This document shows, piece by piece, positions 1 through 10,721 of a stretch of 64,000 nucleotides of DNA. How positions within the stretch are numbered: the stretch's first letter is position 1; each line of letters begins with the position of its first letter. A program made the position numbers and the translations under genes. This stretch comes from Pseudonocardia petroleophila (GTDB taxonomy: Bacteria > Actinomycetota > Actinomycetes > Mycobacteriales > Pseudonocardiaceae). The stretch is from positions 3,107,501 through 3,171,500 of the forward strand of contig NZ_CP060131.1 in assembly GCF_014235185.1 (NCBI RefSeq), read 5' to 3'. The notes beneath the pieces were generated by a model. It was not told where the DNA came from. It worked only from the letters and a program-made list of their open reading frames with translations, and searched no databases.

Positions 1-806
1 TGTACGAGCTCGCGCCGGCGACGTGGCGGTTCATCCGCGAGGCCCGCTCGGGCACGGCGGTGTTCACGATGCCGTCGGGTCCGATCAAGTGCGCAGGGGC
101 GCCGCAGAAGATCGCCTACCTGGCGGCGGACTACTGGCGCGAGCAGGGCGTTCTGTCGAAGATGGACGTCCATCTCGTGCTGCCGACGCCGGGCATGTTC
201 GGGGTGAAGGAGTTCTCCGACGTCCTGGTCGGGGTCGCCCGGCGCTACGGGATCACGGTCCACCTGCAGAGCGAGGCGATCAGCGTCAACCCCGACGCGC
301 GCGAGGTCACCATCGCGGACAAGGCAGCCGGGACCGAGTCGACGCTGGGCTACGAGGTGATGCACATGGTGCCGCCGCAGAGCGCCCCGGACTGGGTGAA
401 GAAGACCGCGCTGGCCGACCCCGCGAACCCGGCCGGCTACGTCGAGATCGACAAGCACACGATGCAGCACACCCGGTTCCCCGAGGTGTTCGCCCTGGGG
501 GACGCCGGTTCGAGCCCGAACTCGAAGACCGGAGCCGCGATCCGCAAGCAGGCCCCCGTGGTCGTGCAGAACCTGGTCGACGTAATGGCCGGCAAGGCTC
601 CCAGCGCGCGCTACGAGGGGTACGCCTCGTGCCCGTTGACGACCTCACGTCACGCAATGCTCCTGGCGGAGTTCGACTACTCGATGAAGCCCACCCCGTC
701 GATCCCCTACATCAACACGATCAAGGAGCGGCGGGACATGTGGTACCTCAAGCGCTACGGCCTGCCTGCCCTGTACTGGCAGGGAATGCTGCGCGGGGTC
801 GCCTGA
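1..806 (+). CDS. sqr: Sulfide:quinone oxidoreductase, 3' part only
   Basis: Membrane-associated FAD enzyme that oxidises sulfide to persulfide or polysulfide and passes electrons to quinone. The gene enters from the left edge: the reading frame (first full codon at 3) is open with no start in the window, so the N-terminal FAD-binding half is missing. The visible part has the family signature FTMPSGPIKCAGAPQK; its cysteine codon at 90-92 is one of the redox cysteines of the family. ALGDAGSSPNSKTGAAIRKQ is the second FAD-contact segment. The C-terminal end has the family's aromatic, basic stretch that lies on the membrane. Neighbouring persulfide-processing genes support sulfide rather than another substrate. 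Family call firm; exact SQR type cannot be set from the fragment. Confidence 0.9.
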   Translation, partial: YELAPATWRFIREARSGTAVFTMPSGPIKCAGAPQKIAYLAADYWREQGVLSKMDVHLVLPTPGMFGVKEFSDVLVGVARRYGITVHLQSEAISVNPDAREVTIADKAAGTESTLGYEVMHMVPPQSAPDWVKKTALADPANPAGYVEIDKHTMQHTRFPEVFALGDAGSSPNSKTGAAIRKQAPVVVQNLVDVMAGKAPSARYEGYASCPLTTSRHAMLLAEFDYSMKPTPSIPYINTIKERRDMWYLKRYGLPALYWQGMLRGVA

Positions 807-811
807 CAGGT

Positions 812-843
812 CGCCGCCCCGGTCGTGACTGGCCGGGGCGGCG
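812..843 (+). terminator. Hairpin terminator after sqr
   Basis: Perfect 11-bp stem (CGCCGCCCCGG with its complement) with a 10-nt loop, starting 5 nt after the stop codon of the sqr gene. No U-tract follows, as is common in high-GC actinobacteria. Confidence 0.7.
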
Positions 844-1230
844 TTGCGTTCACCGGCGTCGGAATGGTCCACTGGTGCCATGACCGCCGGAGCGTCGTGG
901 AAGGCGCACACGTTCTGTGTGTGCCTGCTCGCGATGGACCAGCTGTCCATCGATGATCGGCTCTGTTGTCAGGACTCCCACACCCGCTGAGCGGGCCTAC
1001 GGCCCTGCGGTGTGGCGCGTTCGTCCTGTCGACCTTCGAGCCGAGGATCCTCCATGATCTCGACGTCCATGTCTCCCCGCAGGCCCCGGCCCGTGACCGA
1101 GCGCCCACGCTCCGGCACAGACGCCGTCGAATCGGCGCCGCGTCGGTCCGTACGGTGGCGCCGGCTGATCGCCCGGATCAGCGCGGCGGCCGCCGCCGCA
1201 CACACGGCCTCCGTGCCGTTCTGACCCGGC
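844..1230. other. 387-bp spacer between sqr and the MBL/rhodanese gene
   Basis: No recognisable gene. It holds short imperfect inverted repeats (GCACAC...GTGTGC near 925-945, CCACACC...GGTGTGG near 977-1015) and one marginal small reading frame at 1054-1224. Base composition is less extreme than in the core chromosome to the right, which fits an island. Confidence 0.5.
1054..1224 (+). CDS. Possible 56-residue basic protein, unknown
   Basis: An ATG at 1054 preceded by GAGG (spacing about 6) opens 56 codons. The product is strongly basic in the middle (RSVRWRRLIARI) and ends in an alanine-rich stretch. I recognise no family. Codon use in GC-rich DNA makes chance reading frames of this size common, so only the ribosome-binding site supports it. 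It runs convergently toward the MBL/rhodanese gene, whose stop codon is 6 nt away. Confidence 0.25.
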   Translation: MISTSMSPRRPRPVTERPRSGTDAVESAPRRSVRWRRLIARISAAAAAAHTASVPF

Positions 1231-2589
1231 TCAGCCGGTGGCCAGCCCGCTGCTCACCGCACCGGCGTACTCGTCGTCGACGAACACCACGTCATAGCCT
1301 CCGCGGTCGAGCAGGCTTGCGGCGATGCTCGCCCGGAACCCGGCCGCGCAGTGCACCCACAGCTGACCTTCGGGAACGTCGTCGAGGCGCTCCAGCAGCG
1401 AGTGCATCGGGATGTGGACCGAGCCTGGGATGTGGCCGTGGGCGCGTTCGTCGTCGCGGCGCACATCGAGGACGACGACCCCGTCGCGGCCGCGGGCTTC
1501 GGCCACGTCGGCGAAGGTCACCTGTGGGTAGCGGCGCAGCTCGTCGGACCCGGCCAGGTCGCGGGGTGAGCCCAGCGCGGACCCGTCGGGCCGGTCGATC
1601 CCGATGCGCACCAACTGGCGCTGCGCGGCGGTGACCTGGCCGGCGTCCTCGCCGATCAGGGTCAGCGGGGTGCCCCAGGGGATGAGCCAGCCGAGGTAGG
1701 TGGCGAACTGCTGGCCCAGCGCGATGCCGATGCTGCCGGCGAGGTGCTCGGCGGCGTAGGCGGTGCGGTCGCGCAGGTCCACCACCCATTCCCCCGCGGC
1801 GATCCGCTTGCGCAGTTCCTCGGGGGACACCTCCTCGACCGGGGACAGGTCCGCCGGGCCGGGGCCCTGGCGGTTGCGGGCGCCCATGTGGGCGTAGTAG
1901 CGCGGGTAGGCGGTGAGCCCGGCGACCAGACGGGCGACGAAGGCGTCCTCGTCGGTCTCAGTGAGCGCGTCGTTGTGCCGGCGCTCGTCGCCCATCGTGC
2001 CGCTCGCGGCGCCGGTGGACGATCCCGAGGAGCAGAAGCTGCCGAACCCGTGGGTGGGGTAGACCGCGTCCTCGGCGCCGCTGATCTCGGAGAGCCGCCG
2101 CGCGGAGCGGAACTGCGCGCGGGTGAGCTCCTCGGTGCGGTCGGGGTCGACCAGGTCGGTGCGCCCCACGCTGCCGTAGAGCAGAGACCCGCCGGTGAAC
2201 ACCGCGGCGGGCCCGTCGCCGTCGTCCACCACGTAGGCCAGGTGGGTATCGGTGTGCCCGGGCGTGGCCACGACCCGCACCCGCAGCCGCCCCGCCGTGA
2301 GCTCGTCACCGTCGCGCACGGCGTGCCGGGCGAACGCGACGTCGTCGGCGGCCGCCACCACGTACCGGGCACCGGTGCGCTGCGCGAGGGCGAGACCACC
2401 GGTCACGTAGTCGTTGTGGATGTGGGTCTCCACCACCATCACGCACGTCAGACCACGTGTGTCGAGAAGCTCCGCGACGCGGTCGATGTCGCGCTGCGGG
2501 TCGACCACCACGGCGCTCACGCCATCGTGGGCGATGTAGCTCCGGTCTCCCAGCTCACTGGTCTCGATCACTTCGACCTGCGGACTCAT
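1231..2589 (-). CDS. MBL-fold hydrolase with C-terminal rhodanese domains (persulfide dioxygenase-like)
   Basis: 452 residues. The N-terminal metallo-beta-lactamase fold (about 1-250) resembles ETHE1/persulfide dioxygenases, which oxidise glutathione- or other low-molecular-weight persulfide to sulfite. The C-terminal half carries rhodanese modules: a degenerate one around 265-345 and an active-looking one around 360-450 with HCAAGFRAS. The metal motif is THIHNDY (H56, H58, D60) rather than THxHxDH, a variant I know from MBL-rhodanese fusions; ATPGHTDTH supplies the next histidine. Start chosen at the ATG at 2589 because AAGGAGGG lies 6-7 nt upstream; an upstream in-frame ATG lacks a site. 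Divergent from the GntR gene, with which it shares a 93-bp promoter region. Substrate (persulfide) is inferred from context. Confidence 0.85.
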   Translation of the reverse strand: MSPQVEVIETSELGDRSYIAHDGVSAVVVDPQRDIDRVAELLDTRGLTCVMVVETHIHNDYVTGGLALAQRTGARYVVAAADDVAFARHAVRDGDELTAGRLRVRVVATPGHTDTHLAYVVDDGDGPAAVFTGGSLLYGSVGRTDLVDPDRTEELTRAQFRSARRLSEISGAEDAVYPTHGFGSFCSSGSSTGAASGTMGDERRHNDALTETDEDAFVARLVAGLTAYPRYYAHMGARNRQGPGPADLSPVEEVSPEELRKRIAAGEWVVDLRDRTAYAAEHLAGSIGIALGQQFATYLGWLIPWGTPLTLIGEDAGQVTAAQRQLVRIGIDRPDGSALGSPRDLAGSDELRRYPQVTFADVAEARGRDGVVVLDVRRDDERAHGHIPGSVHIPMHSLLERLDDVPEGQLWVHCAAGFRASIAASLLDRGGYDVVFVDDEYAGAVSSGLATG

Positions 2590-2600
2590 GCGGACCCTCC

Positions 2601-2632
2601 TTGCTCTCGCGGCCACAATGACCGTACATTAC
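2601..2632. promoter_or_regulatory. Overlapping divergent promoters, probable GntR control region
   Basis: On the + strand TTGCTC (2601-2606) and TACATT (2625-2630) are spaced 18 bp, a good housekeeping promoter for the gntR operon. On the - strand TAATGT (2632-2627) could be the -10 of the MBL/rhodanese gene and overlaps the first. A regulator binding here could control both sides. I see no clean operator palindrome. Confidence 0.45.
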
Positions 2633-2682
2633 GATGACAGTATCCGAGATGTGGGACAAGCGGACGTGACGAAGGATGGGAC

Positions 2683-3486
2683 ATGGCAGGCAAGCAGGAC
2701 AGGGGACCCCGATCCCTGGACAGGGCGTCGGGACAGCCGCTGTGGATCCAGCTGCTCGCCGACCTGCGTCGCCGGCTTGACGCCGATGAGTTCACCGCGG
2801 CGTTCCCGGGCGAGCTGACACTCGGTGCCGAGTACGAGATCAGCAGGCACACCGTCCGCGAGGCACTGCGCGTGCTGCGCGAGGAAGGACGGGTCACCGC
2901 GGCCCGCGGCCGGGCGCCCCGGCTCGCCGAACCGGCCGAGATCCAGCAGCCCCTCGGCGCGCTCTACAGCCTGTTCGCCTCGGTGGAAGCCGCAGGACTG
3001 GCCCAACGCAGCATCGTCCGCACGCTCGATGTCCGGGCCGACGGGGTCATCGCCGCTCGACTCGGGCTGGAGGAGTCCACCCCGCTGGTCTACCTCGAAC
3101 GTCTCCGGTTGGCCGGCGCCGACCCGCTCGCGGTGGATCGCGTGTGGCTCCCCGCATCGCTCGCCGCTCCCCTCCTGGATGCTGATTTCAGCCACACCGG
3201 CCTCTACCAGGAGTACCGCGAACGGTGCGAGATCACCGTCACCGGCGGCCAGGAGAGCATCCGTGCCGTCATGCCCAGTGATGCGGAGCGGCAGTTGCTC
3301 GGGATCGGCTCAGATATCGCGACCTTCTCGATCGAACGTCTCGGTTGCTCCTACGGGCAACCCGCCGAATGGCGTCACACCCTCGTACGCGGAGACCGGT
3401 TCGGCGTCACCGCGCAGTTCTCGGCCCGCAGCGGTTACCAGTTCGAGATGTCCGCTCCCCACCGATACGAAGGACACCAGCGATGA
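2683..3486 (+). CDS. GntR family regulator, HutC/UTRA type
   Basis: 267 residues. An N-terminal winged helix-turn-helix (about 15-85) includes SGQPLWIQLLADLRRRL and YEISRHTVREALRVLREEGRV, the recognition region of GntR proteins. The rest is a UTRA effector-binding domain of the HutC subfamily. AAGGAT precedes the ATG. First gene of a four-gene unit with overlapping stops and starts (rhodanese, TauE/SafE, then rhodanese-DUF2892), and divergent from the MBL/rhodanese gene, so it probably controls the sulfur cluster and itself. The effector is unknown; a sulfur metabolite such as persulfide or sulfite is inference only. Confidence 0.88.
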   Translation: MAGKQDRGPRSLDRASGQPLWIQLLADLRRRLDADEFTAAFPGELTLGAEYEISRHTVREALRVLREEGRVTAARGRAPRLAEPAEIQQPLGALYSLFASVEAAGLAQRSIVRTLDVRADGVIAARLGLEESTPLVYLERLRLAGADPLAVDRVWLPASLAAPLLDADFSHTGLYQEYRERCEITVTGGQESIRAVMPSDAERQLLGIGSDIATFSIERLGCSYGQPAEWRHTLVRGDRFGVTAQFSARSGYQFEMSAPHRYEGHQR

Positions 3487-3824
3487 ACACCTCTGACCAG
3501 ATCCACCAGGTCGATCCGACCGAGGCGCGGCAACTCGCCGCCGACGGCGCGCTCCTGTTGGACGTTCGCGAGCCCGACGAATGGGCGGCCGGACACGCAG
3601 CCGACGCCACTCACATGCCGCTGGGAGACCTCGATCCGGACAGCGTGCCGCGCGACCGGATCGTGGTGGCGGTCTGCCGCTCCGGAAACCGCTCCGGGAA
3701 AGCCGCGGTCGCGCTCGCCGAGGCCGGCATCGACGTCCGCAACATGGCGGGCGGCATGAACGCCTGGGCCGAGGCGAACCTGCCGATCACCCGCGACGAC
3801 GGACAACCGGGCACGGTCGCCTGA
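3483..3824 (+). CDS. Single-domain rhodanese
   Basis: 113 residues, one complete rhodanese domain. The active-site loop is CRSGNRS with cysteine 65; the N-terminal signature LLLDVREPDEWAAGH and the C-terminal NMAGGMNAW are typical. It moves sulfane sulfur between persulfide donors and acceptors such as thiols, cyanide or sulfite. Its ATG overlaps the gntR stop (ATGA, 4 bp), which implies translational coupling, and its own stop overlaps the next ATG by 1 bp. No signal peptide, so cytoplasmic. In this cluster it likely works with SQR and the MBL/rhodanese protein; the direction of transfer cannot be read from sequence. Confidence 0.92.
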   Translation: MNTSDQIHQVDPTEARQLAADGALLLDVREPDEWAAGHAADATHMPLGDLDPDSVPRDRIVVAVCRSGNRSGKAAVALAEAGIDVRNMAGGMNAWAEANLPITRDDGQPGTVA

Positions 3825-4672
3825 TGCTCGCCGCGGTGCTCGGGCTGGTCATCGGCGTCGTCATCGGCGGGTTGGGCGGCGGCGGGGGAGTGCTCACCGT
3901 CCCCGCACTCGTCTACGTCCTCGGCCAGACCGCGCAGGATGCCACCACCAGCAGCGTCATCATCGTCGGCATCACCGCCGTCGTCGGCGTGCTGGCCCGG
4001 GCACGTGGCGGACTCATCAAGTGGCGCACCGGCCTGGCCTTCGGCGCTGTCGGCATCCCGGCGGCGGCGGCGGGAACTCTGCTCAACCAGCGCGTCGCCG
4101 AGCCCGCGTTGCTGTTGTCGTTTGCCGCATTGACCGTCCTCGCCGCGATCGCGATGATCCTCGACTCACGTCGGGCGCCGAATACCGGCCCAGCCGATTG
4201 CAGCGAAACCGACTCGGCGGGAGCACCCGAGCGACCGGGTAGCGCCGGGACAGCTGTCGACGTCGCCGTCGAACCCGCAACCCGGACGGCATCCCCCGCC
4301 ATTGGGAACGCCGTCAAGATCATCCTGTGTGGGATCCTGATCGGCTTTCTCACCGGGTTCCTGGGCGTTGGCGGCGGGTTCTTGATGGTTCCCGCTCTGG
4401 TCATCGTCCTGCGCATGCCCATGACCTACGCCGTCGGCACCTCACTGCTGATCATCGCCATCAACTCCGCGGCGGCGTTCGCCACGCGAGCCGGCGTCGC
4501 CGAGTTCGACCCGGCCCTCCTCATCCCGTTCACCGCGGCCGCGGTGATCGGCAGCTTCGCCGGGAAGCTGGTGTCCGACCGCGTCTCGGGCACCACGCTG
4601 ACCCGAGCCTTCGCCGTCATGCTGCTGCTGGTCGGAGCCTTCGTCGCCGTCGAGAGCGTGCTCTCCCTCTGA
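3824..4672 (+). CDS. TauE/SafE family sulfite/anion exporter
   Basis: 282 residues, polytopic membrane protein with about eight hydrophobic segments in two related halves separated by a polar loop near 110-150. Each half begins with the glycine-rich family signature: GLVIGVVIGGLGGGGGVLTV at the N-terminus and IGFLTGFLGVGGGFLMVPAL in the second half. Family members export sulfite, sulfoacetate or other organosulfur anions. The ATG at 3824 overlaps the rhodanese stop by one base (TGATG). Coupling to persulfide-oxidising genes makes sulfite or thiosulfate a reasonable cargo, by inference. Confidence 0.88.
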   Translation: MLAAVLGLVIGVVIGGLGGGGGVLTVPALVYVLGQTAQDATTSSVIIVGITAVVGVLARARGGLIKWRTGLAFGAVGIPAAAAGTLLNQRVAEPALLLSFAALTVLAAIAMILDSRRAPNTGPADCSETDSAGAPERPGSAGTAVDVAVEPATRTASPAIGNAVKIILCGILIGFLTGFLGVGGGFLMVPALVIVLRMPMTYAVGTSLLIIAINSAAAFATRAGVAEFDPALLIPFTAAAVIGSFAGKLVSDRVSGTTLTRAFAVMLLLVGAFVAVESVLSL

Positions 4673-4717
4673 GCGGCCGCCGCTTCCACTTCACACACCC
4701 CGACCGATAGGAAATCT

Positions 4718-5308
4718 GTGCCTTCCACCCGCCCCCACCACGTCGATGCAGACACGGTTCGCACCTGGCTCAGCCAGCCCGAGACGGTGACCGTCATCGA
4801 CGTCCGCGGCCCCGCGGAATTCGAGACGGTGCACATCCGCGGCTCCCACAACGTGCCGCTGCACATGGTCGGCGATCACACCGAGCAACTCGCCGCCCGG
4901 CTCGACCGGCCGATCGTTCTTGTGTGCCAGTCCGGCACGCGAGCCGCCCAGGCCCATCAGCGTCTCGCCGGAGTCGGCGCCGACCACCTCCACATCCTCG
5001 ACGGTGGCATCGCGGGATACACCGCCGCCGGTGGCGAGGTCCGACGTGGCCGCGCCCGCTGGGCCCTGGAGCGCCAGGTCCGCCTCGTCGCCGGGACACT
5101 CGTACTCGCCGGCCTCACGGCCGGGCTCCGCGCACCGAAGGCGCGTCTCCTCGCCGCCGGAATCGGTGCCGGCCTCACATTCTCCGCCCTGACCGACACC
5201 TGCACGATGGGTCGGATCCTGTCCGCGCTGCCCCACAACCGCGGACCCAAGGACCGGACACTGCTCGAAGTGCTCTCGCAGTTGCCGACAGGACCAGCGG
5301 CGGCATGA
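4718..5308 (+). CDS. Rhodanese fused to DUF2892 membrane domain (YgaP-like)
   Basis: 196 residues. A cytoplasmic rhodanese domain (about 8-105, active-site CQSGTRA with cysteine 70) is followed by a DUF2892 unit of two membrane helices (about 115-165) and the conserved tail TDTCTMGRILSALPHNR. E. coli YgaP has the same layout and is a membrane sulfurtransferase. Start is GTG at 4718 with AGGA 6-7 nt upstream. It lies 45 bp after the exporter gene, probably in the same operon, and is the third rhodanese-containing protein in this cluster. Confidence 0.88.
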   Translation: MPSTRPHHVDADTVRTWLSQPETVTVIDVRGPAEFETVHIRGSHNVPLHMVGDHTEQLAARLDRPIVLVCQSGTRAAQAHQRLAGVGADHLHILDGGIAGYTAAGGEVRRGRARWALERQVRLVAGTLVLAGLTAGLRAPKARLLAAGIGAGLTFSALTDTCTMGRILSALPHNRGPKDRTLLEVLSQLPTGPAAA

Positions 5309-5807
5309 AGCAAGCGCGTCAATCACGGTCCGCGGTGGTTGGCGCACTAGCGACGGACCTGAAGACTTCGCGGTGCACGACAGGGCCTCGATCGTCGAAT
5401 CGATGATGGTCTGCCGGGCGTCGGGTCGGATCTCATGGCACAGCGGACCGAGACTCTTCTCAAGCACGCGCTCAAGGCCGCGCGGGCCGAGGACCTCTTG
5501 TTCGACGCCTCCGGCGGGGCCTGCCGGCCCTCAGAGCCCTGTGTCAACCCCCGTCGTGTGCTACTACCGGTGACTCCCAGGTGTGTGCACGGCCGGGCGG
5601 GCCTCACCAGTACCGGCGATCACCACGACGGTCAGGCCGGCGTCGAGGAGGGTGTCGACCATCTGCCCGTCGCCGCGGTCGATAGCGACACCCATGGTGT
5701 GACGCCTCGGGCAGCTCTCTCACCCGATCGTGAACGTTGCGGAGGTCGGAACCGTAGAAGGAGGTGGCGCACTAGCGCCCTGACTCATCGATACGCGAGG
5801 GAACATC
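5309..5807. other. 499-bp spacer with decayed insertion-sequence DNA
   Basis: No intact gene. It contains an IS110 transposase fragment (5617-5693) and a 12-bp sequence GGCGCACTAGCG present twice, at 5341-5352 and 5766-5777; the second copy lies in a small hairpin (GGCGC ACTA GCGCC). A + strand frame opening at 5435 shows no recognisable product. Confidence 0.6.
5617..5693 (-). mobile_element. IS110-family transposase remnant
   Basis: Translated on the - strand this reads AIDRGDGQMVDTLLDAGLTV and VVI, almost identical to residues of the intact IS110 transposase at 7187-8485 (AIERGDGQVVDTLLDAGLTV and VVI). Nothing of the rest of the gene is left, so it is a relic of an older, slightly different copy. 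Confidence 0.85.
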
Positions 5808-6716
5808 ATGCGTGCACCTCTTCGGTCCGGTCTGATCGCTCTGATCACCGGTGTCCTGCTCGCGGCCCCGGTCGCCGCCGCATCCGCCCAGGAGGACTCG
5901 GACCGCCGCGACTCCTCGCGCGATTCCTCCCGCGGCTCGTTCGACGATCGGCGTAACCGTCTCGACATCGTCGGGCTGGTCGATGGCACCAAGCTGGTCT
6001 CCTTCAGGTCGGACAGCACCCGGATCGGCGACAATCGGGACCGTCGAGGCGGTGGCAGCCTCGACGTTCGCGGGCTCTCCGGCGACACCCGCCTGGTCGG
6101 CATCGACTACCGGGTCCAGGACGGGCGGCTCTACGGCGTCGGCAACGCCGGTGGGGTGTACTCCATCGATGACCGCGGCCGGGCCCAGAAGGTCAAGCAG
6201 CTCACGGTCGCGTTGAACGGCAGTAACTTCGGGGTGGACTTCAACCCGGCCGCGAACGCGTTGCGGGTCATCAGCGACTCCGGCCAGAACCTGCGCCAGC
6301 CCTTCGCCGACCTGAACGCGGCCACCATCGCCGACGGTGGCCTCAACTACGGTGGCACCCCCGCTGCCGGGGTCGCCGGCGCGGCCTACACGAACAACGA
6401 TCTCGACCCGAACACCGCCACCGTGTTGTTCGACCTCGACACCAACCGCGACCAGCTCGCCACCCAGAACCCGCCCAACAACGGCACGCTCGTCCCCACC
6501 GGCCCCCTCGGGGTAAACGCCGGAGCCGATGCCGGACTCGACATCTACAGCACCGTCCGCAACGGCACCACCGTCGACCTGATGGCCTTCGCCACCATCC
6601 GGGTCGGCAACCAGTACAGCCTCTACCGCATCTCCCTGTCCGACGGCCGCGCCAACCGGGTCGGCGGATTCGACCGCAATGTGACCGACATCGCCATCCC
6701 GCTCAACCAGCTCTGA
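5808..6716 (+). CDS. Secreted DUF4394 domain protein
   Basis: 302 residues. The signal peptide is MRAPLRSGLIALITGVLLAA followed by an alanine-rich cleavage region near residue 27. A short charged, serine-rich linker (DRRDSSRDSSRGSFDDRR) leads into a DUF4394 domain (about 45-300), a beta-rich, propeller-like fold seen in extracellular proteins; LVGIDYRVQDGRLYGVGNAG and FGVDFNPAANALRVISD are characteristic. GAGGGAA before the ATG supports this start. Function of the family is unknown. It stands alone between a decayed insertion sequence and a terminator, and is probably island cargo. Confidence 0.85.
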   Translation: MRAPLRSGLIALITGVLLAAPVAAASAQEDSDRRDSSRDSSRGSFDDRRNRLDIVGLVDGTKLVSFRSDSTRIGDNRDRRGGGSLDVRGLSGDTRLVGIDYRVQDGRLYGVGNAGGVYSIDDRGRAQKVKQLTVALNGSNFGVDFNPAANALRVISDSGQNLRQPFADLNAATIADGGLNYGGTPAAGVAGAAYTNNDLDPNTATVLFDLDTNRDQLATQNPPNNGTLVPTGPLGVNAGADAGLDIYSTVRNGTTVDLMAFATIRVGNQYSLYRISLSDGRANRVGGFDRNVTDIAIPLNQL

Positions 6717-6731
6717 ATCCTGCGCACCCCC

Positions 6732-6768
6732 GAGGCACCCACCCGAGCACCCGACGGGCGGGTGCCTC
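6732..6768 (+). terminator. Terminator after the DUF4394 gene
   Basis: Stem of 13 bp with one mismatch (GAGGCACCCACCC against GGGCGGGTGCCTC), loop 11 nt, beginning 16 nt after the stop codon. Confidence 0.75.
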
Positions 6769-6913
6769 GTGCGGTTGAAGTGTGGGTCCGACCGGTCCCT
6801 CCGAGCCGGTAACGCCCGCAACGTCGTCCTGTCCCGCTGGCGTGAGCGTCCCGGGGTCCTGCTTCTCCGGCTTGGCCGAGTAGGAGCGTCGCTGTCCGGG
6901 CCCGTCGGGTGCG

Positions 6914-7063
6914 GGGTCTCTCCTCGCGTCGGCGCTGCGACGGTGCCCGGGAACCCGGTGACGATCCAGGCCCTCCCGGCCGCTGCGCGGTCGCCTCCGG
7001 CGAGCCTGGACCGCCACCGGAACCCCGGGCAGGGACCCGTCGCGCCGACGCGAGGAGAGACCC
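6914..7063. repeat. 150-bp imperfect palindrome with 21-bp perfect terminal inverted repeats
   Basis: The ends are perfect 21-bp inverted repeats (GGGTCTCTCCTCGCGTCGGC plus G at 6914-6934, complement at 7043-7063). Moving inward, further blocks pair in register: GCCCGGG, CCGGTG and TCCAGGC each recur as complements, so the whole element can fold into one long hairpin with a small central loop. No credible reading frame runs through it. It ends 123 bp before the stop codon of the IS110 transposase. It could be a MITE, an IS110-associated structured RNA or a defunct end of another element. No target-site duplication is evident. Confidence 0.75.
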
Positions 7064-7186
7064 AGCTGATCACCCGGCCGCAGGTGTGCCCGGTGTCGAG
7101 TTCAGAGCACCGGCCCTGGCGGGCCGGCTCCCTCCGGGGGCCGGGCGCCGCCCTGGACCCGGCCTCGCTTCAGAGAGCCGCCAGGG

Positions 7187-8485
7187 TCAGGCCGCGGTCA
7201 CCTCCGTCGGCGAGGTGGCCTGGTGCAGGACGGCTTGGAGCGCGCGGTGGCGGGCGGGGTCGTAGGGCTGGTGGTCCTGCCAGCAGCGCCAGATCACGTG
7301 CAGCCAAGCCCGCGCGACGATCCGAACCGCGTGAGGGTGGTGGTGCCCGCGGGCCCGGGCCCGGTCGTAGAGGCCGGCGGCCCAGGGGTTGGCGTGCCGG
7401 GAGTCGGCGGCGAAGTCGCAGACCGCGTCGCGCAGCTGTTTGTCGGCCGACCACCGGAACGAGGTGATCTTCATCTTCCCGGACTGCCGCGTCGACGGGG
7501 TGGTCCCGGCGAGGGAGGCGAGGGATTCGGGGGTGGGGAACCGACCGCGACAGTCCCCGATCTCGGCCAGCAACCGGGCCGCGCGCAGCGCTTTCGCGCG
7601 CGGTAGGGACAGGAAGATGTGCGCGTCGGCGTGCTCGGACAGCAGCGCGGCGATGTGGGCGTCGAGGGTGTGGATCTGGGTGACGATCACGGTCAACGCG
7701 GCGACGAACGCGCCGGTCACCTGGGCGGCCGCGGCACCGGCCGGCCCAGTCGCGCCGGGCGCGGCCGCGCGCAGGTGGGCGTGCAGCGCGGCGGGGTCCT
7801 TGCGGCCGGTATAGCCGACGGAGCGTAGCCAGGTTGCCAACCGGGACGGGGTGAGCCAGTCGGTGTCGTCCTGGCAGGTGAACCGGCCCAAGAACCGCAG
7901 GCTGGTCACGGCGTCGAGGTCGGCGAACAGCCCGACCGGGCCGGGGTGGAAGAACCGCAGATGCGCCCGGAGCTGATTAGCCAGCCCGACCCGGTGGGCG
8001 AGCAGATCCTTCCGGGCCCGCACTGCTGATCGGAGCATGAGCGTGGCCGCGGTGTCGGGGACGAGCGGGCGCAGCCGGGCACGGTCGGTGCGCAGGGTGT
8101 CGGCCAGGACGAACGCGTCGAACCGGTCGTCCTTGTTCCCGGCCGAGCCGTAGCGTCCGCGCAGGTTGTGGACCTGGTTGGGGCTGATCACCACGACGGT
8201 GAGCCCGGCGTCGAGGAGAGTGTCGACGACCTGTCCGTCGCCGCGTTCGATCGCGATCTCGCCGACGCCGGCGCGGCGCAGCCGGCGGACGAGCTCGCGC
8301 AGCCCGGCGCCGGTGGCGTCGATGAGGAACTGCTCGGTGACCGTGCCCTTGTTGTTCACGATCGCGACGGCGTGGTCGGCGGTGGCCCAGTCCAGGCCGG
8401 CGGTGACGTCACCAGGCGGGAACTCCGGCAGAACGGTCACCGATGGCGCGGTCGCGCTGGGGGAGCGGGTCGGGGTGGGCGGCAT
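7187..8485 (-). CDS. IS110 family transposase (DEDD recombinase)
   Basis: 432 residues, apparently complete. The N-terminal RuvC-like DEDD domain starts with AGLDWATADHAVAIV (first aspartate near residue 32), has AIERGDGQ and ends in KDDRFDAFVLADTL. The C-terminal Transposase_20 domain has SLASLAGTTPSTRQSGK, with the conserved serine. IS110 enzymes insert a circular intermediate using a bridge RNA encoded in the noncoding end of the element. I chose the ATG at 8485 because AAGGA lies just upstream; an in-frame ATG at 8557 is an alternative without a site. The remnant at 5617 shows that this family has entered the island more than once. Confidence 0.93.
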   Translation of the reverse strand: MPPTPTRSPSATAPSVTVLPEFPPGDVTAGLDWATADHAVAIVNNKGTVTEQFLIDATGAGLRELVRRLRRAGVGEIAIERGDGQVVDTLLDAGLTVVVISPNQVHNLRGRYGSAGNKDDRFDAFVLADTLRTDRARLRPLVPDTAATLMLRSAVRARKDLLAHRVGLANQLRAHLRFFHPGPVGLFADLDAVTSLRFLGRFTCQDDTDWLTPSRLATWLRSVGYTGRKDPAALHAHLRAAAPGATGPAGAAAAQVTGAFVAALTVIVTQIHTLDAHIAALLSEHADAHIFLSLPRAKALRAARLLAEIGDCRGRFPTPESLASLAGTTPSTRQSGKMKITSFRWSADKQLRDAVCDFAADSRHANPWAAGLYDRARARGHHHPHAVRIVARAWLHVIWRCWQDHQPYDPARHRALQAVLHQATSPTEVTAA

Positions 8486-8930
8486 GTCGTCCTTCGTGCA
8501 GCGGTTGCAGGCGCGCCCGTGGGGAAGGTGCTGGGTCGCGGCTCCCGCATCGCTCACTGTTAGGCGCTCACGGTGGCGCTCAGCCCTTGTCGACGGTCCG
8601 CGCGACCCAGGTGACCACCAGGTCCCGCGTTTCTAAGGGGGGACGTCGACTCGTCGCGTCGGCTTACCAGGGCGGTGACCGGGTGGCACCTCGGGTGCAT
8701 CGACGACGAGATCGCCGCCGACACCTACCGATAGTGGCCCAGTGGGCTTACCACGGCCTGACTCCCGGTAAAGGGCACTCCGCTGCGCTCCGTGTCGCTG
8801 CGCGACGGCCTTCGGCCGCCCTTGACCGGCAGCCTCCACGGCCGTGGTTGGTCGCCTTACGGCGGCGGGGGAAACAACTCCCCGCCGCCCCAAGGGGACG
8901 GGCCACCAGGCCCAACCAGAGGAGGCCACG
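8486..8930. other. 445-bp noncoding stretch: IS110 upstream end and structured leader
   Basis: The part next to the transposase start (about 8486-8640) is where an IS110-group element would encode its bridge RNA; it contains a repeated GGCGCTCA (8563-8570 and 8575-8582). The exact element end cannot be fixed without the target sequence. The rest (about 8640-8930) is rich in small hairpins, including CGGCCTTCGGCCG near 8802-8820 and the perfect stem at 8861-8889, and looks like a leader for the following gene. No gene seen. Confidence 0.45.
8861..8889 (+). terminator. Perfect 10-bp hairpin 41 nt before an unknown gene
   Basis: GGCGGCGGGG (8861-8870) pairs with CCCCGCCGCC (8880-8889) across a 9-nt A-rich loop. 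It may be an attenuator, an operator, or a terminator for transcription from the IS110 side. The position in the leader of the 8931 gene favours regulation. Confidence 0.45.
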
Positions 8931-9443
8931 ATGCCCGCACGTACCCGCCCGCCCGCCGAGCAGACCGCGCAGGCGCGGATGATCACTGCCTCCTCCGTCG
9001 TGACGAATCTCGTCGTCCGAGCTGCTGGACTCGTCCCTGCGCGGCTGGACCTGGCGCACGTCGGTACGCCGGAGCAGCAGCTGGGGCTCACTCTCGGCGG
9101 GGTGCTGATCTACATGCGGGCTGGGGCCACCGCCCGCGCCGCAGCGGACGGCTGGACGGGCGCGGCGGTGCTCGCGCAGTCGCTCCCGCCGGCCATCGCG
9201 GGACGGCGTCCGCTGTTGATCGGCCCGACGACCGTGGCCGCGATGGTGCGGCTGGCTGGGCTGCCGGAGGTCGGGGCGATCTTCGTGCCGTCCCGGGCCA
9301 GCGGCGCGGTCCCTGCGATGCTGCGGCTGCAGATGGGGCCCGTCACGTGGGAGATCTGCGACGCGACGGCGTATACGTCGATGCTGCGCGCGTGGCGGCA
9401 GGCCGCGCAGCTGCTCGGCGACAACCCGACCGAGGACGAGTGA
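8931..9443 (+). CDS. Unknown protein, 170 residues (island gene)
   Basis: I do not recognise a family. AGAGGAGG lies 6-7 nt before the ATG at 8931, a very strong site, so the gene is probably real. The sequence is soluble, alanine- and leucine-rich, with a central segment AAVLAQSLPPAIAGRRPLLI and a conserved-looking IFVPSRASGAVPAMLRLQMG ahead of a C-terminal helix WRQAAQLLGDNPTEDE. No signal peptide or clear membrane helix. Hairpins lie before (8861) and after (9462) it. Its place between an IS110 element and the tRNA-Gly fragment suggests island cargo or a maintenance gene. Confidence 0.65.
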   Translation: MPARTRPPAEQTAQARMITASSVVTNLVVRAAGLVPARLDLAHVGTPEQQLGLTLGGVLIYMRAGATARAAADGWTGAAVLAQSLPPAIAGRRPLLIGPTTVAAMVRLAGLPEVGAIFVPSRASGAVPAMLRLQMGPVTWEICDATAYTSMLRAWRQAAQLLGDNPTEDE

Positions 9444-9461
9444 CCGACGCTGTGGACTACC

Positions 9462-9488
9462 CGGCCCGGCTGCAGTGCAGCCGGGCCG
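9462..9488 (+). terminator. Perfect 13-bp hairpin with 1-nt loop
   Basis: CGGCCCGGCTGCA and its exact complement are separated by a single G. It follows the 8931 gene by 18 nt. Such a tight palindrome would form a cruciform or a strong terminator hairpin, and it argues against a GTG start at 9440 for the next gene. Confidence 0.7.
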
Positions 9489-9508
9489 AGGCGCGTCATC
9501 ATCGGCGC

Positions 9509-9781
9509 ATGGGTGTGTTGTGGACGGTCGGAGTGCTTCCGGCCGGGGTGGAGAACGTGCAGCCGCTGGCGAGTGGCGTGGAGGAGAGCTGGGCGGCCGC
9601 GATCGACGAGGCATCCGGCGCTCTCGTCGTGGCCGCCGCCGATCGCGGCCGCGCGGAGTACCGGGTCTCCGTGGCCGGCGCTGAGATGATGGTGATTCCC
9701 GGACTGACCGAGGACGGCGAGGTCGACCTGTCCAGCCTCCAGGACACGCTGACGTCGATTACGCGCGGCTACGGCGACTGA
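9509..9781 (+). CDS. Small unknown protein, 90 residues (island gene)
   Basis: Product begins MGVLWTVGVLPAGVENVQPL and contains SWAAAIDEASGALVVAAADR and YRVSVAGAEMMVIPGLTEDG; acidic overall, no membrane segment or signal peptide. No family recognised. Start uncertain: ATG 9509 lies after a strong hairpin, while an in-frame GTG at 9440 overlaps the previous stop (GTGA) and would read through the hairpin. The gene ends 121 bp before the tRNA-Gly fragment, so it is the last gene of the island. Confidence 0.5.
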   Translation: MGVLWTVGVLPAGVENVQPLASGVEESWAAAIDEASGALVVAAADRGRAEYRVSVAGAEMMVIPGLTEDGEVDLSSLQDTLTSITRGYGD

Positions 9782-9902
9782 TCGCTCGTGGGATCAAATG
9801 TGGTGCGAAACAGCGGAGGCGAGCGTGAACGGAGACGCCCATAGACGGGTCGCGTGCGGCTGTCGTCGCAGGTGGAGGCCCTGGTCTACAACGATCGGAT
9901 AC

Positions 9903-9946
9903 CTTCCAAACTAGCTACGCGGGTTCGATTCCCGTCGCCCGCTCCA
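9903..9946 (+). other. tRNA-Gly(TCC) 3' fragment: probable attachment site at the island's right end
   Basis: From the anticodon loop CTTCCAA through the 3' anticodon strand (ACTAG), T-arm (GCGGG TTCGATT CCCGT), acceptor strand CGCCCGC, discriminator T and CCA, this matches the 3' half of a tRNA-Gly(TCC). The 5' acceptor strand GCGGGCG, the D-arm and the 5' anticodon strand are absent; the bases before it do not pair. Integrases of actinobacterial elements commonly use exactly this segment, leaving a 3' copy at the distal end. The intact gene and integrase would then lie left of the window. Confidence 0.8.
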
Positions 9947-9962
9947 CGTCCCCGCGGCACCG

Positions 9963-10676
9963 TCAGCGCAGGAGCTCGCCCGCCCGCCGCAGCACGTCGA
10001 GCTGGGCGGGGTTGTAGAGCTCCCGCATCGCCCGCTGCGCGGTCTGCTCGACGAAGCGCGCGCCGCGCGGGGAGTCGGAGTGCGGGGCGGTCAGGCCGGG
10101 GTGGTCGGCGTGCAGCCTGCGGATGTAGGGGGCCAGGCGCTCGGCCAGGTCCCGGCGGGTCGGCTCGTCGGCGTCGGCGGGGAGGTCGTCGAGCTCGCGG
10201 GCCACGGGATCGACGGGGAGGTCCTCCAGCACGTCGGCCCAGGCCTGCATGCGCTGCGGCCCGAGCACCCGGCTCAGCACGACGACGAACGAGCGGTCGG
10301 CGTCGGTCAGCCCGGCCGTGGCGGCCGGGGCGAGCTCGGGCGGGAGGTCCAGCGGCGCCGACCGGTCCAGGATGAGCGCGAGCTCGGCCCGGGCGCGCTG
10401 GAGCCGGTCGACGGTGGCGGCGAGCTCGGCGTCGAGCGCGCGCAGGGCGTCGGCCGGGTGGCCGTCGTCGCCCATCTCGGCGATCTGGGGCAGGGAGAAC
10501 CCGAGGTCGGTGAGGCGCCTGATCCGCAGCAGCCGGACGAGGTGGGCCACGCCGTACTGCTTGTAGCCGTTGGCGCGCCGCTCGGGCTCCGCGAGCAGCC
10601 CGACCTCGTGGTAGTGCCGGACCGCCCGCACGCTCGTGCCGGCGAGCTCGGCGATCTCGCGGGTGCTCCAGGCCAC
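9963..10676 (-). CDS. MerR family transcriptional regulator
   Basis: 237 residues. The N-terminal MerR helix-turn-helix reads STREIAELAGTSVRAVRHYH and continues into YKQYGVAHLVRLLRIRRLTD; the remainder is a helical effector region (about 80-237) unlike the cysteine-rich metal sensors, so the ligand is unknown. I chose GTG 10676 because TACGTT lies exactly 6 nt upstream, the leaderless pattern seen across this window; a further GTG at 10706 is possible. It is the first gene of the resident chromosome after the attachment site and ends 17 bp from it. Convergence with the island means no read-through into it. Confidence 0.88.
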   Translation of the reverse strand: MAWSTREIAELAGTSVRAVRHYHEVGLLAEPERRANGYKQYGVAHLVRLLRIRRLTDLGFSLPQIAEMGDDGHPADALRALDAELAATVDRLQRARAELALILDRSAPLDLPPELAPAATAGLTDADRSFVVVLSRVLGPQRMQAWADVLEDLPVDPVARELDDLPADADEPTRRDLAERLAPYIRRLHADHPGLTAPHSDSPRGARFVEQTAQRAMRELYNPAQLDVLRRAGELLR

Positions 10677-10682
10677 GGGGCC

Positions 10683-10688
10683 AACGTA
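10683..10688 (-). promoter_or_regulatory. -10 hexamer TACGTT, leaderless merR
   Basis: Six bases separate the hexamer from the GTG at 10676, predicting transcription to begin at the start codon. Confidence 0.5.
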
Positions 10689-10721
10689 GGACCACGGGGA
10701 CGCCACCGGGGCCGGGGGTCG

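Follow-up and report, generated by a model that had tools for sequence, protein, structure and literature searches.

A probable 32.6-kb integrative mobilizable-type element at a tRNA-Gly(TCC) gene of Pseudonocardia petroleophila, and related MobF elements in the same genome

The 64,000-nucleotide stretch of the Pseudonocardia petroleophila genome analysed here (the window; C1:3107501-3171500 of a single contig of 6,490,139 bp) includes at positions 9903–9950 what is very probably the attR of an integrative mobilizable-type element that spans 32.6 kb (C1:3084769-3117446) and occupies the 3' end of a tRNA-Gly(TCC) gene. Reading a 44-bp scar by eye has led to a delimited mobile-type island, and the island to a family of seven elements within one genome, all of which sit in a tRNA gene or follow one in tandem. 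The island is a possible route for sulfide-oxidation genes among actinomycetes, and the family raises the question of how elements that have a relaxase and a coupling protein and lack VirB4 would pass between cells.

Results

A duplicated tRNA 3' half at the right end of the island

Window positions 9903–9946 correspond to the part of tRNA-Gly(TCC) that runs from the anticodon loop to the CCA, its 3' half, and no complete tRNA is called anywhere in the window by either ARAGORN or Rfam at the gathering threshold (0 in each case), so that the letters bear out the reading in an earlier note on this DNA of a 3' half standing without its gene. The 44-mer occurs twice in the whole genome when up to three mismatches are allowed, and both occurrences are exact; the second, at C1:3084769-3084812, lies 32.6 kb to the left of the scar in an intact tRNA-Gly(TCC) gene (Rfam tRNA, 71.6 bits; also called by ARAGORN), of which it makes up the 3' part. 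Identity between the copies continues for 48 bp (window 9903–9950, forward strand), and the attR core is therefore the duplicated half plus 4 bp. The reversed 44-mer, used as a control, has no occurrence in this genome or in any of the 62 Pseudonocardia genomes searched, and chance is thus no explanation for the copies.

The earlier note had taken the segment to be the footprint of an integrase at the right end of a genomic island, and had predicted an intact tRNA-Gly(TCC) and probably an integrase to the left. Both are present: the only other genomic copy of the same 44 bp sits in the intact gene, and an integrase gene adjoins that gene, about 165 bp after it. The leftward search that it proposed also recovers a MobF relaxase together with a coupling protein, both inside the island. 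The note had named two outcomes that would count against it, the lack of a tRNA copy within about 100 kb and synteny of positions 1–9900 as core sequence in relatives, and neither was encountered.

That the 44-bp piece comes from decay or duplication of a tRNA gene, with no link to integration, seems extremely improbable. Partial tRNA copies can come from other recombination events, and two relatives (G001 and G024) have short-spaced second copies, but partial copies starting at the same base or no more than 3 bases off are present in at least 19 other genomes, and the integrase beside the tRNA, the arm repeats described below and six parallel cases in the same genome all fit integration. The evidence at hand leaves this alternative little room.

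Organization of the island

From the left, the order of genes across the 32.6 kb between the two tRNA 3' copies is an integrase; a low-GC block; GntR and NUDIX genes; a gene with a TPR match below the cut-off; an excisionase-like helix-turn-helix (HTH) gene; WhiB; a VirD4-type coupling protein; a MobF relaxase; and LysR, SLAC1-family and UDG genes. The right part, within the window, consists of a sulfide cluster, a DUF4394 gene, IS110, and genes g36 and g37, followed by the scar.

The integrase (C1:3084976-3086691) is a tyrosine recombinase, its integrase domain scoring 61 bits (cut-off 27.1); it has a GntR-type domain at the C terminus and matches phage integrase families; its start codon is uncertain, giving a length of 571 to 623 residues. 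Its relatives in five genomes (G056, G027, G051, G023 and G048) align to at least residue 568 of 571, and the alignment therefore covers the GntR-type fusion. The low-GC block next to it (C1:3086825-3089907) has a GC content of 56–58%, compared with 67–77% in the other 1-kb bins, and contains a DUF262/GmrSD-N gene (PADLOC NsnA, 2.9e-57; PD-T4-2_A, 1.4e-50), a gene whose resemblance to HEPN is only weak (E 0.05) and a type II methyltransferase gene; it is possibly an anti-phage module. Among the seven proteins scanned against PHROGs, the HTH protein (C1:3092511-3092723) matches excisionase/RDF families and, weakly, a terminase small subunit (E 0.0002). The coupling protein (C1:3094325-3096262) has coupling-protein domains, and the relaxase (C1:3098727-3103112; 1461 residues) matches NF041492 at 149.9 bits (cut-off 100) and PF08751 at 1.4e-45. 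The motif residues of both integrase and relaxase appear intact when judged by eye. The backbone genes g13, g15, g16, g18, g19 and g22 have no significant match in the Pfam scan of 32 island ORFs. There are two pockets of cargo: the DUF262/methyltransferase block follows the integrase, and the sulfide-oxidation cassette lies to the right of the relaxase, ahead of the right end.

The cassette includes a gene like that of sulfide:quinone oxidoreductase (SQR), whose 3' part occupies window positions 1–806 (forward strand; the full gene, C1:3107107-3108306, encodes 399 residues and starts 394 bases left of the window). It is followed by a persulfide-dioxygenase-like gene for a metallo-beta-lactamase (MBL) and rhodanese protein (1231–2589, reverse strand; PF00753 and two stretches of PF00581), a GntR/UTRA regulator (2683–3486, forward; PF07702, PF00392), a single-domain rhodanese (3483–3824, forward; PF00581), a member of the TauE/SafE sulfite exporter family (3824–4672, forward; PF01925, 3.4e-46) and a rhodanese with a YgaP-like membrane domain (4718–5308, forward; PF00581, PF11127). 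Beyond an ORF (5564–5695, reverse) in which 71 bp at 5618–5688 are an IS110 remnant 89% identical to the intact copy lie the DUF4394 gene (5808–6716, forward; PF14339, 6e-62), the intact IS110-family transposase gene (7187–8440, reverse; PF01548, PF02371) and the two backbone genes g36 (8931–9443, forward) and g37 (9548–9781, forward). Neither g36 nor g37 has a significant Pfam domain, and each has counterparts in the same four of the six other MobF elements of the genome, 76–80% identical for g36 and 54–58% identical and beside it for g37. The first host gene to the right of the scar, outside the island, encodes a MerR-family protein (9963–10706, reverse; PF13411).

We considered whether the region is a prophage remnant, for which the matches of the integrase to phage integrase families could speak, and regard this as highly improbable. 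No capsid or tail family is found by Pfam among the 32 island ORFs, a sub-cut-off T4_Y13H match of 13 bits on g36 aside, and genes for a relaxase and a coupling protein are present; the prophage reading was therefore dropped in favour of an integrative mobilizable-type element.

Arm repeats and integrase targets

A 21-bp direct repeat is present at both ends of the island, with the left copy (C1:3084862-3084882) starting 50 bp after the tRNA and the right copy (window 9789–9809, forward strand) ending 93 bases before the scar. It is probably an arm-type site of the integrase, and is present without mismatch and at the same two spacings in G056. With up to four mismatches allowed, the motif has 13 matches in 788 kb (overlapping loci count some places twice), and all 13 lie by a tRNA or att end, a scar, a relic or an integrase start. 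It is found in five of the 12 best integrase loci, including three of the seven at tRNA-Gly (again at up to four mismatches), and is absent from the fetched stretches of the six other elements of this genome that were included in the search; the motif is not general among these integrase loci.

Comparison of the best integrase match in each of 12 genomes places the seven top ones, this island's included, 166–170 bp after a tRNA-Gly(TCC) gene without exception. For the five further genomes, four of the best matches are 165–168 bp after tRNA-Thr(TGT), and the fifth is on a contig on which no tRNA is called; integrase relatedness thus tracks the target tRNA in these 11. Two more G023 integrases (68% and 66%), outside the 12 compared, are on contigs without a tRNA-Gly copy. 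When integrase matches were compared with 37 tRNA-Gly copies, 11 of the first 39 were located 155–170 bp from one, and 18 of 50 after the addition of 11 others, several of which were picked as near tRNA-Gly.

In the most likely course of integration, the integrase whose gene stands beside the intact tRNA attached to the 21-bp arm repeats and recombined the attP core of a circular element with the tRNA gene at its identical 3' end. A new 3' half would have come with the element, which kept the tRNA whole on the left, and the half that the host had originally would have been displaced to the right end, where it forms the scar. With an excisionase-like HTH protein encoded in the island, the reaction is presumably reversible.

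The integration site in related genomes

Four candidate sites (G001, G019, G049 and G024) were aligned to the joined flanks of the island, and two of these relatives have the syntenic tRNA-Gly site without the island. In G019 the left flank is kept up to the tRNA (85% DNA identity) and there is no island; two other genes are in the MerR position, and the right flank matches from the IclR gene onward in pieces of 76–89% DNA identity (89% at the IclR gene). G001 is 89% identical in the left flank and 84–92% in the right (92% at the IclR gene); its tRNA and a degenerate scar are only 1.2 kb apart, and this scar carries a copy of the 21-bp repeat with two mismatches and is directly followed by a MerR homologue. 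The earlier note had looked to relatives for a clean junction: the flanks are syntenic without the island in these two, and no contiguous base-perfect empty site was found in a relative. The MerR gene, which is replaced in G019, is variable, and the note's description of the right side as ordinary core holds from the IclR gene onward.

The two other sites are less complete. G049 keeps the left flank and the tRNA, and its right flank was not found. In G024 the tRNA is accompanied by a second copy at a distance of 1.2 kb and by a piece of the MerR gene in the opposite orientation, and this locus is probably a relic of the same kind of element. The 21-bp repeat is present there without mismatch at positions 7566–7586 of L055 (G024:C3:1390000-1402000).

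More widely, the 44-mer is present in 59 of the 62 genomes at up to three mismatches, and in two or more copies in 19 of them, this genome included; these 19 together with G028 make up at least 20 genomes with a partial copy starting at the same base or no more than 3 off. G056 has four tRNA-Gly 3' copies in a row (G056:C1:5018334-5118926), three of them with an integrase 155–167 bp away, and this is, to judge from the sequence, a tandem array at the same tRNA.

A family of MobF elements

The relaxase has eight matches in its own genome, of which at least seven are near full length and seven are recovered at E 1e-50; in one element (A) there is a stop codon within the aligned stretch. Each of the seven near-full-length relaxases has a tRNA on one side and, on the other, a duplicated tRNA 3' end of 36–59 bp. 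Besides the tRNA-Gly(TCC) island, the elements span C1:1706680 to 1663621, 1452069 to 1397529, 935858 to 965878, 965878 to 995638, 2019648 to 2043873 and 84936 to 124399, and the duplications are of tRNA-Ala(TGC) (47 bp), tRNA-Arg(ACG) (51 bp), tRNA-Thr(TGT) (59 bp), tRNA-Lys(CTT) (36 bp) and tRNA-Arg(CCT) (44 bp), the last with a second element in tandem behind it, also with 44 bp. Queries with the coupling protein and with the relaxase find a match in every one of the seven elements, and g36/g37 are matched in five of the seven, the tRNA-Gly island included. The integrase query has no match in one of the seven (element E), where a Pfam integrase match is present.

Relaxase matches are found in 48 of the 62 Pseudonocardia genomes, and at E 1e-50 in 22 of 60 sampled genomes of Pseudonocardiaceae; of 57 genomes sampled from the family's other genera, 12 have relatives of at least 50% identity, in one case as short pieces only. 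A scan of named genomes gave one contig with a match, of a Pseudonocardia sp. MAG (97% identity). The 458 plasmid records with a match all stay below 60% identity (38.5% for the first match listed), so this is not a common plasmid relaxase.

Discussion

Relation to known elements

The island is of a known general kind. As in other islands that target tRNA genes, there is an intact tRNA at one end, a duplicated 3' end at the other, an integrase beside the tRNA, and absence from the syntenic site in relatives (no island in G019 and only 1.2 kb in G001). It shares with the integrative mobilizable elements (IMEs) reviewed by Guedon in 2017 a tyrosine integrase at one end, direct repeats within the range of 8–60 bp, insertion into the 3' end of a tRNA gene, which stays intact, a relaxase of its own and no VirB4 that could be found (PMC5704250). 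Canonical IMEs have relaxases of the MobP, MobQ, MobV and MobC types, with MobF in none according to the available text of that review, and no coupling protein; this island differs in having a MobF relaxase and its own VirD4-type coupling protein, which is mentioned there together with MobC (PMC5704250). The only actinobacterial IME given in that text is ATE-1, which has a MobV relaxase and is located in guaA (PMC5704250). With a relaxase, a coupling protein and no VirB4-like match, we classify the island as IME-type, though with a MobF relaxase. Seven elements of this genome combine a MobF relaxase with a coupling protein of their own and have no VirB4-like match, a variant not listed in the available text of the 2017 review (PMC5704250).

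The integrative conjugative elements (ICEs) of Actinobacteria that use a type IV secretion system (T4SS), as described by Ghinet in 2011, likewise have an integrase, a VirD4-type coupling protein and a MobF relaxase, but differ from the island in having VirB4 (PMC3218068). The VirB4-like ATPase that defines them has no AAA_10 match in the element, and the T4SS-type ICE reading was rejected. The title of a supplementary table of that survey names 'mobilizable integrating elements' in Frankia, and a similar case may stand there (PMC3218068). Biosynthetic clusters at tRNA genes in Pseudonocardia have been suggested to ride on IMEs or ICEs, and are alike in genus, tRNA insertion and accessory cargo, whereas the cargo of the island is for sulfide metabolism (PMC9903846). 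We found no open-access description of a genomic island with SQR and persulfide dioxygenase (subscription journals and element databases lay outside the search), and no relevant open-access paper on Pseudonocardia with either 'sulfide quinone' or integrative relaxase elements. The actinomycete elements of the pSAM2 type (AICEs) also integrate into tRNA genes by a tyrosine integrase, but the island has no match to the FtsK/SpoIIIE-type Tra that, with a replication initiator, defines them, among the 32 island ORFs scanned with Pfam, and its only match of a replication-initiator type is weak (RP-C, 29 bits), on a GntR protein that scores 131 bits as GntR; the AICE reading was rejected. The island GntR and NUDIX genes resemble genes of pSAM2.

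Transfer

The MobF relaxase and VirD4-type coupling protein would nick the circular element and feed it into a mating pore, which we infer to be supplied from elsewhere. The VirB4-like domain AAA_10 has no match in any of the seven elements, other pore proteins being too variable for such a check; at E 1e-5 the genome has a single match, at C1:1866726-1867712, outside all seven. AAA_10 matches are present in 59 of the 62 Pseudonocardia genomes, and 48 of these have only one. The VirB4-like gene of this genome is in a cluster (C1:1862657-1869815) with an NLPC_P60 gene and unassigned genes, and the genes adjoining the cluster are, as we take them by eye, dnaK, grpE and dnaJ. A VirB4-like protein of Streptomyces coelicolor is part of the cmdABCDEF cluster, which affects sporulation; transfer of an SLP2-derived plasmid is unchanged when the cluster is deleted (PMC2782261). 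This speaks against a general role in transfer, and the chromosomal cluster as a source of the pore is therefore speculative.

It could instead be that the island is a complete self-transmissible actinobacterial ICE with pore genes that are not recognised, in need of no helper. Both the relaxase and the coupling protein are present, the six backbone genes lacking a significant Pfam match leave room for such pore genes, and the 2011 survey sought T4SS-type ICEs by the combination of integrase, VirD4, VirB4 and MobF (PMC3218068). This appears unlikely, as the one AAA_10 match of the genome lies outside every element, no FtsK/SpoIIIE translocase is found by Pfam in the 32 island ORFs, and the RP-C match on the GntR protein is the sole one of a replication type. 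Returning to a mobilizable-type element, we offer a broader proposal that is tentative and probably will not hold in full, that the Pseudonocardiaceae hold an undescribed multi-copy class of tRNA-seeking mobilizable elements, with a MobF relaxase unlike those of known plasmids and their own coupling protein, which lack a pore of their own and would use a host-encoded apparatus, possibly the chromosomal VirB4-like cluster, and for which sulfide oxidation would be a recurrent cargo.

The sulfur cassette

At the level of domains the cassette, with its SQR-like flavoprotein, MBL-fold and rhodanese proteins, corresponds to an SQR/persulfide dioxygenase cluster, and sulfide oxidation is its predicted function. 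The SQR-like protein without its first 33 residues scores 193.6 bits against the best NCBIfam model, for which the cut-off is 525. That model is of a selenoprotein subtype, and a selenoprotein SQR was considered and rejected: upstream, the frame stays open as far as a normal ATG start, and selenocysteine is therefore not required in that stretch.

Near-full-length SQR matches of at least 61% identity (with a query that carried 37 extra upstream residues) are present in 13 of the 62 genomes, this one included, with fragments in three more. We checked the loci in 13 other genomes, leaving out G050 and G033, which have SQR fragments. In G037 the same sulfur genes belong to a 75-kb element at tRNA-Thr(CGT) that shares the backbone and is flanked by a duplication of 45 bp, and SQR there is in two pieces; in G028 the cassette is on a 110-kb plasmid-like contig. 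Partial signs of mobility are seen in four of the 13: a broken integrase beside tRNA-Ala(TGC) in G032, a piece of an integrase on the contig in G009, and pieces of g36/g37 at 4 kb from SQR in G001 and 23 kb in G052. No mobile gene is near SQR in seven of the 13 (G024, G021, G003, G007, G039, G054 and G055, the last two on short contigs). SQR relatives are also on 147 plasmid records at E 1e-40, of which 25 are at 60–80% identity. Since its contexts include plasmids, elements and loci free of mobile genes, the cassette travels, and not only with the MobF element family.

The cassette may have entered after integration, for example with IS110, an alternative that we consider less likely than not. 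The right pocket contains an IS110 copy and a remnant, element A has IS110 at the same end, and the cassette is on the plasmid-like contig of G028 and elsewhere away from visible mobile genes. Set against this, the island has no further piece of IS110 and hence none to the left of the cassette, and in G037 the corresponding pocket of another element contains the cassette, with no IS110 match there.

In G039 a sulfur cluster is directly beside tRNA-Gly(TCC) (L061; G039:C2:4283188-4295940) and includes genes that we take, by eye, to be thioredoxin-like and CcdA-like. We do not count it as an element, as it has no integrase, no second tRNA copy and no shared right flank. To the left of IS110 in the island there is an imperfect palindrome of 156 bp (window 6911–7066), the outer 25-bp arms of which are 96% complementary, and this is probably the palindrome meant in the earlier note.
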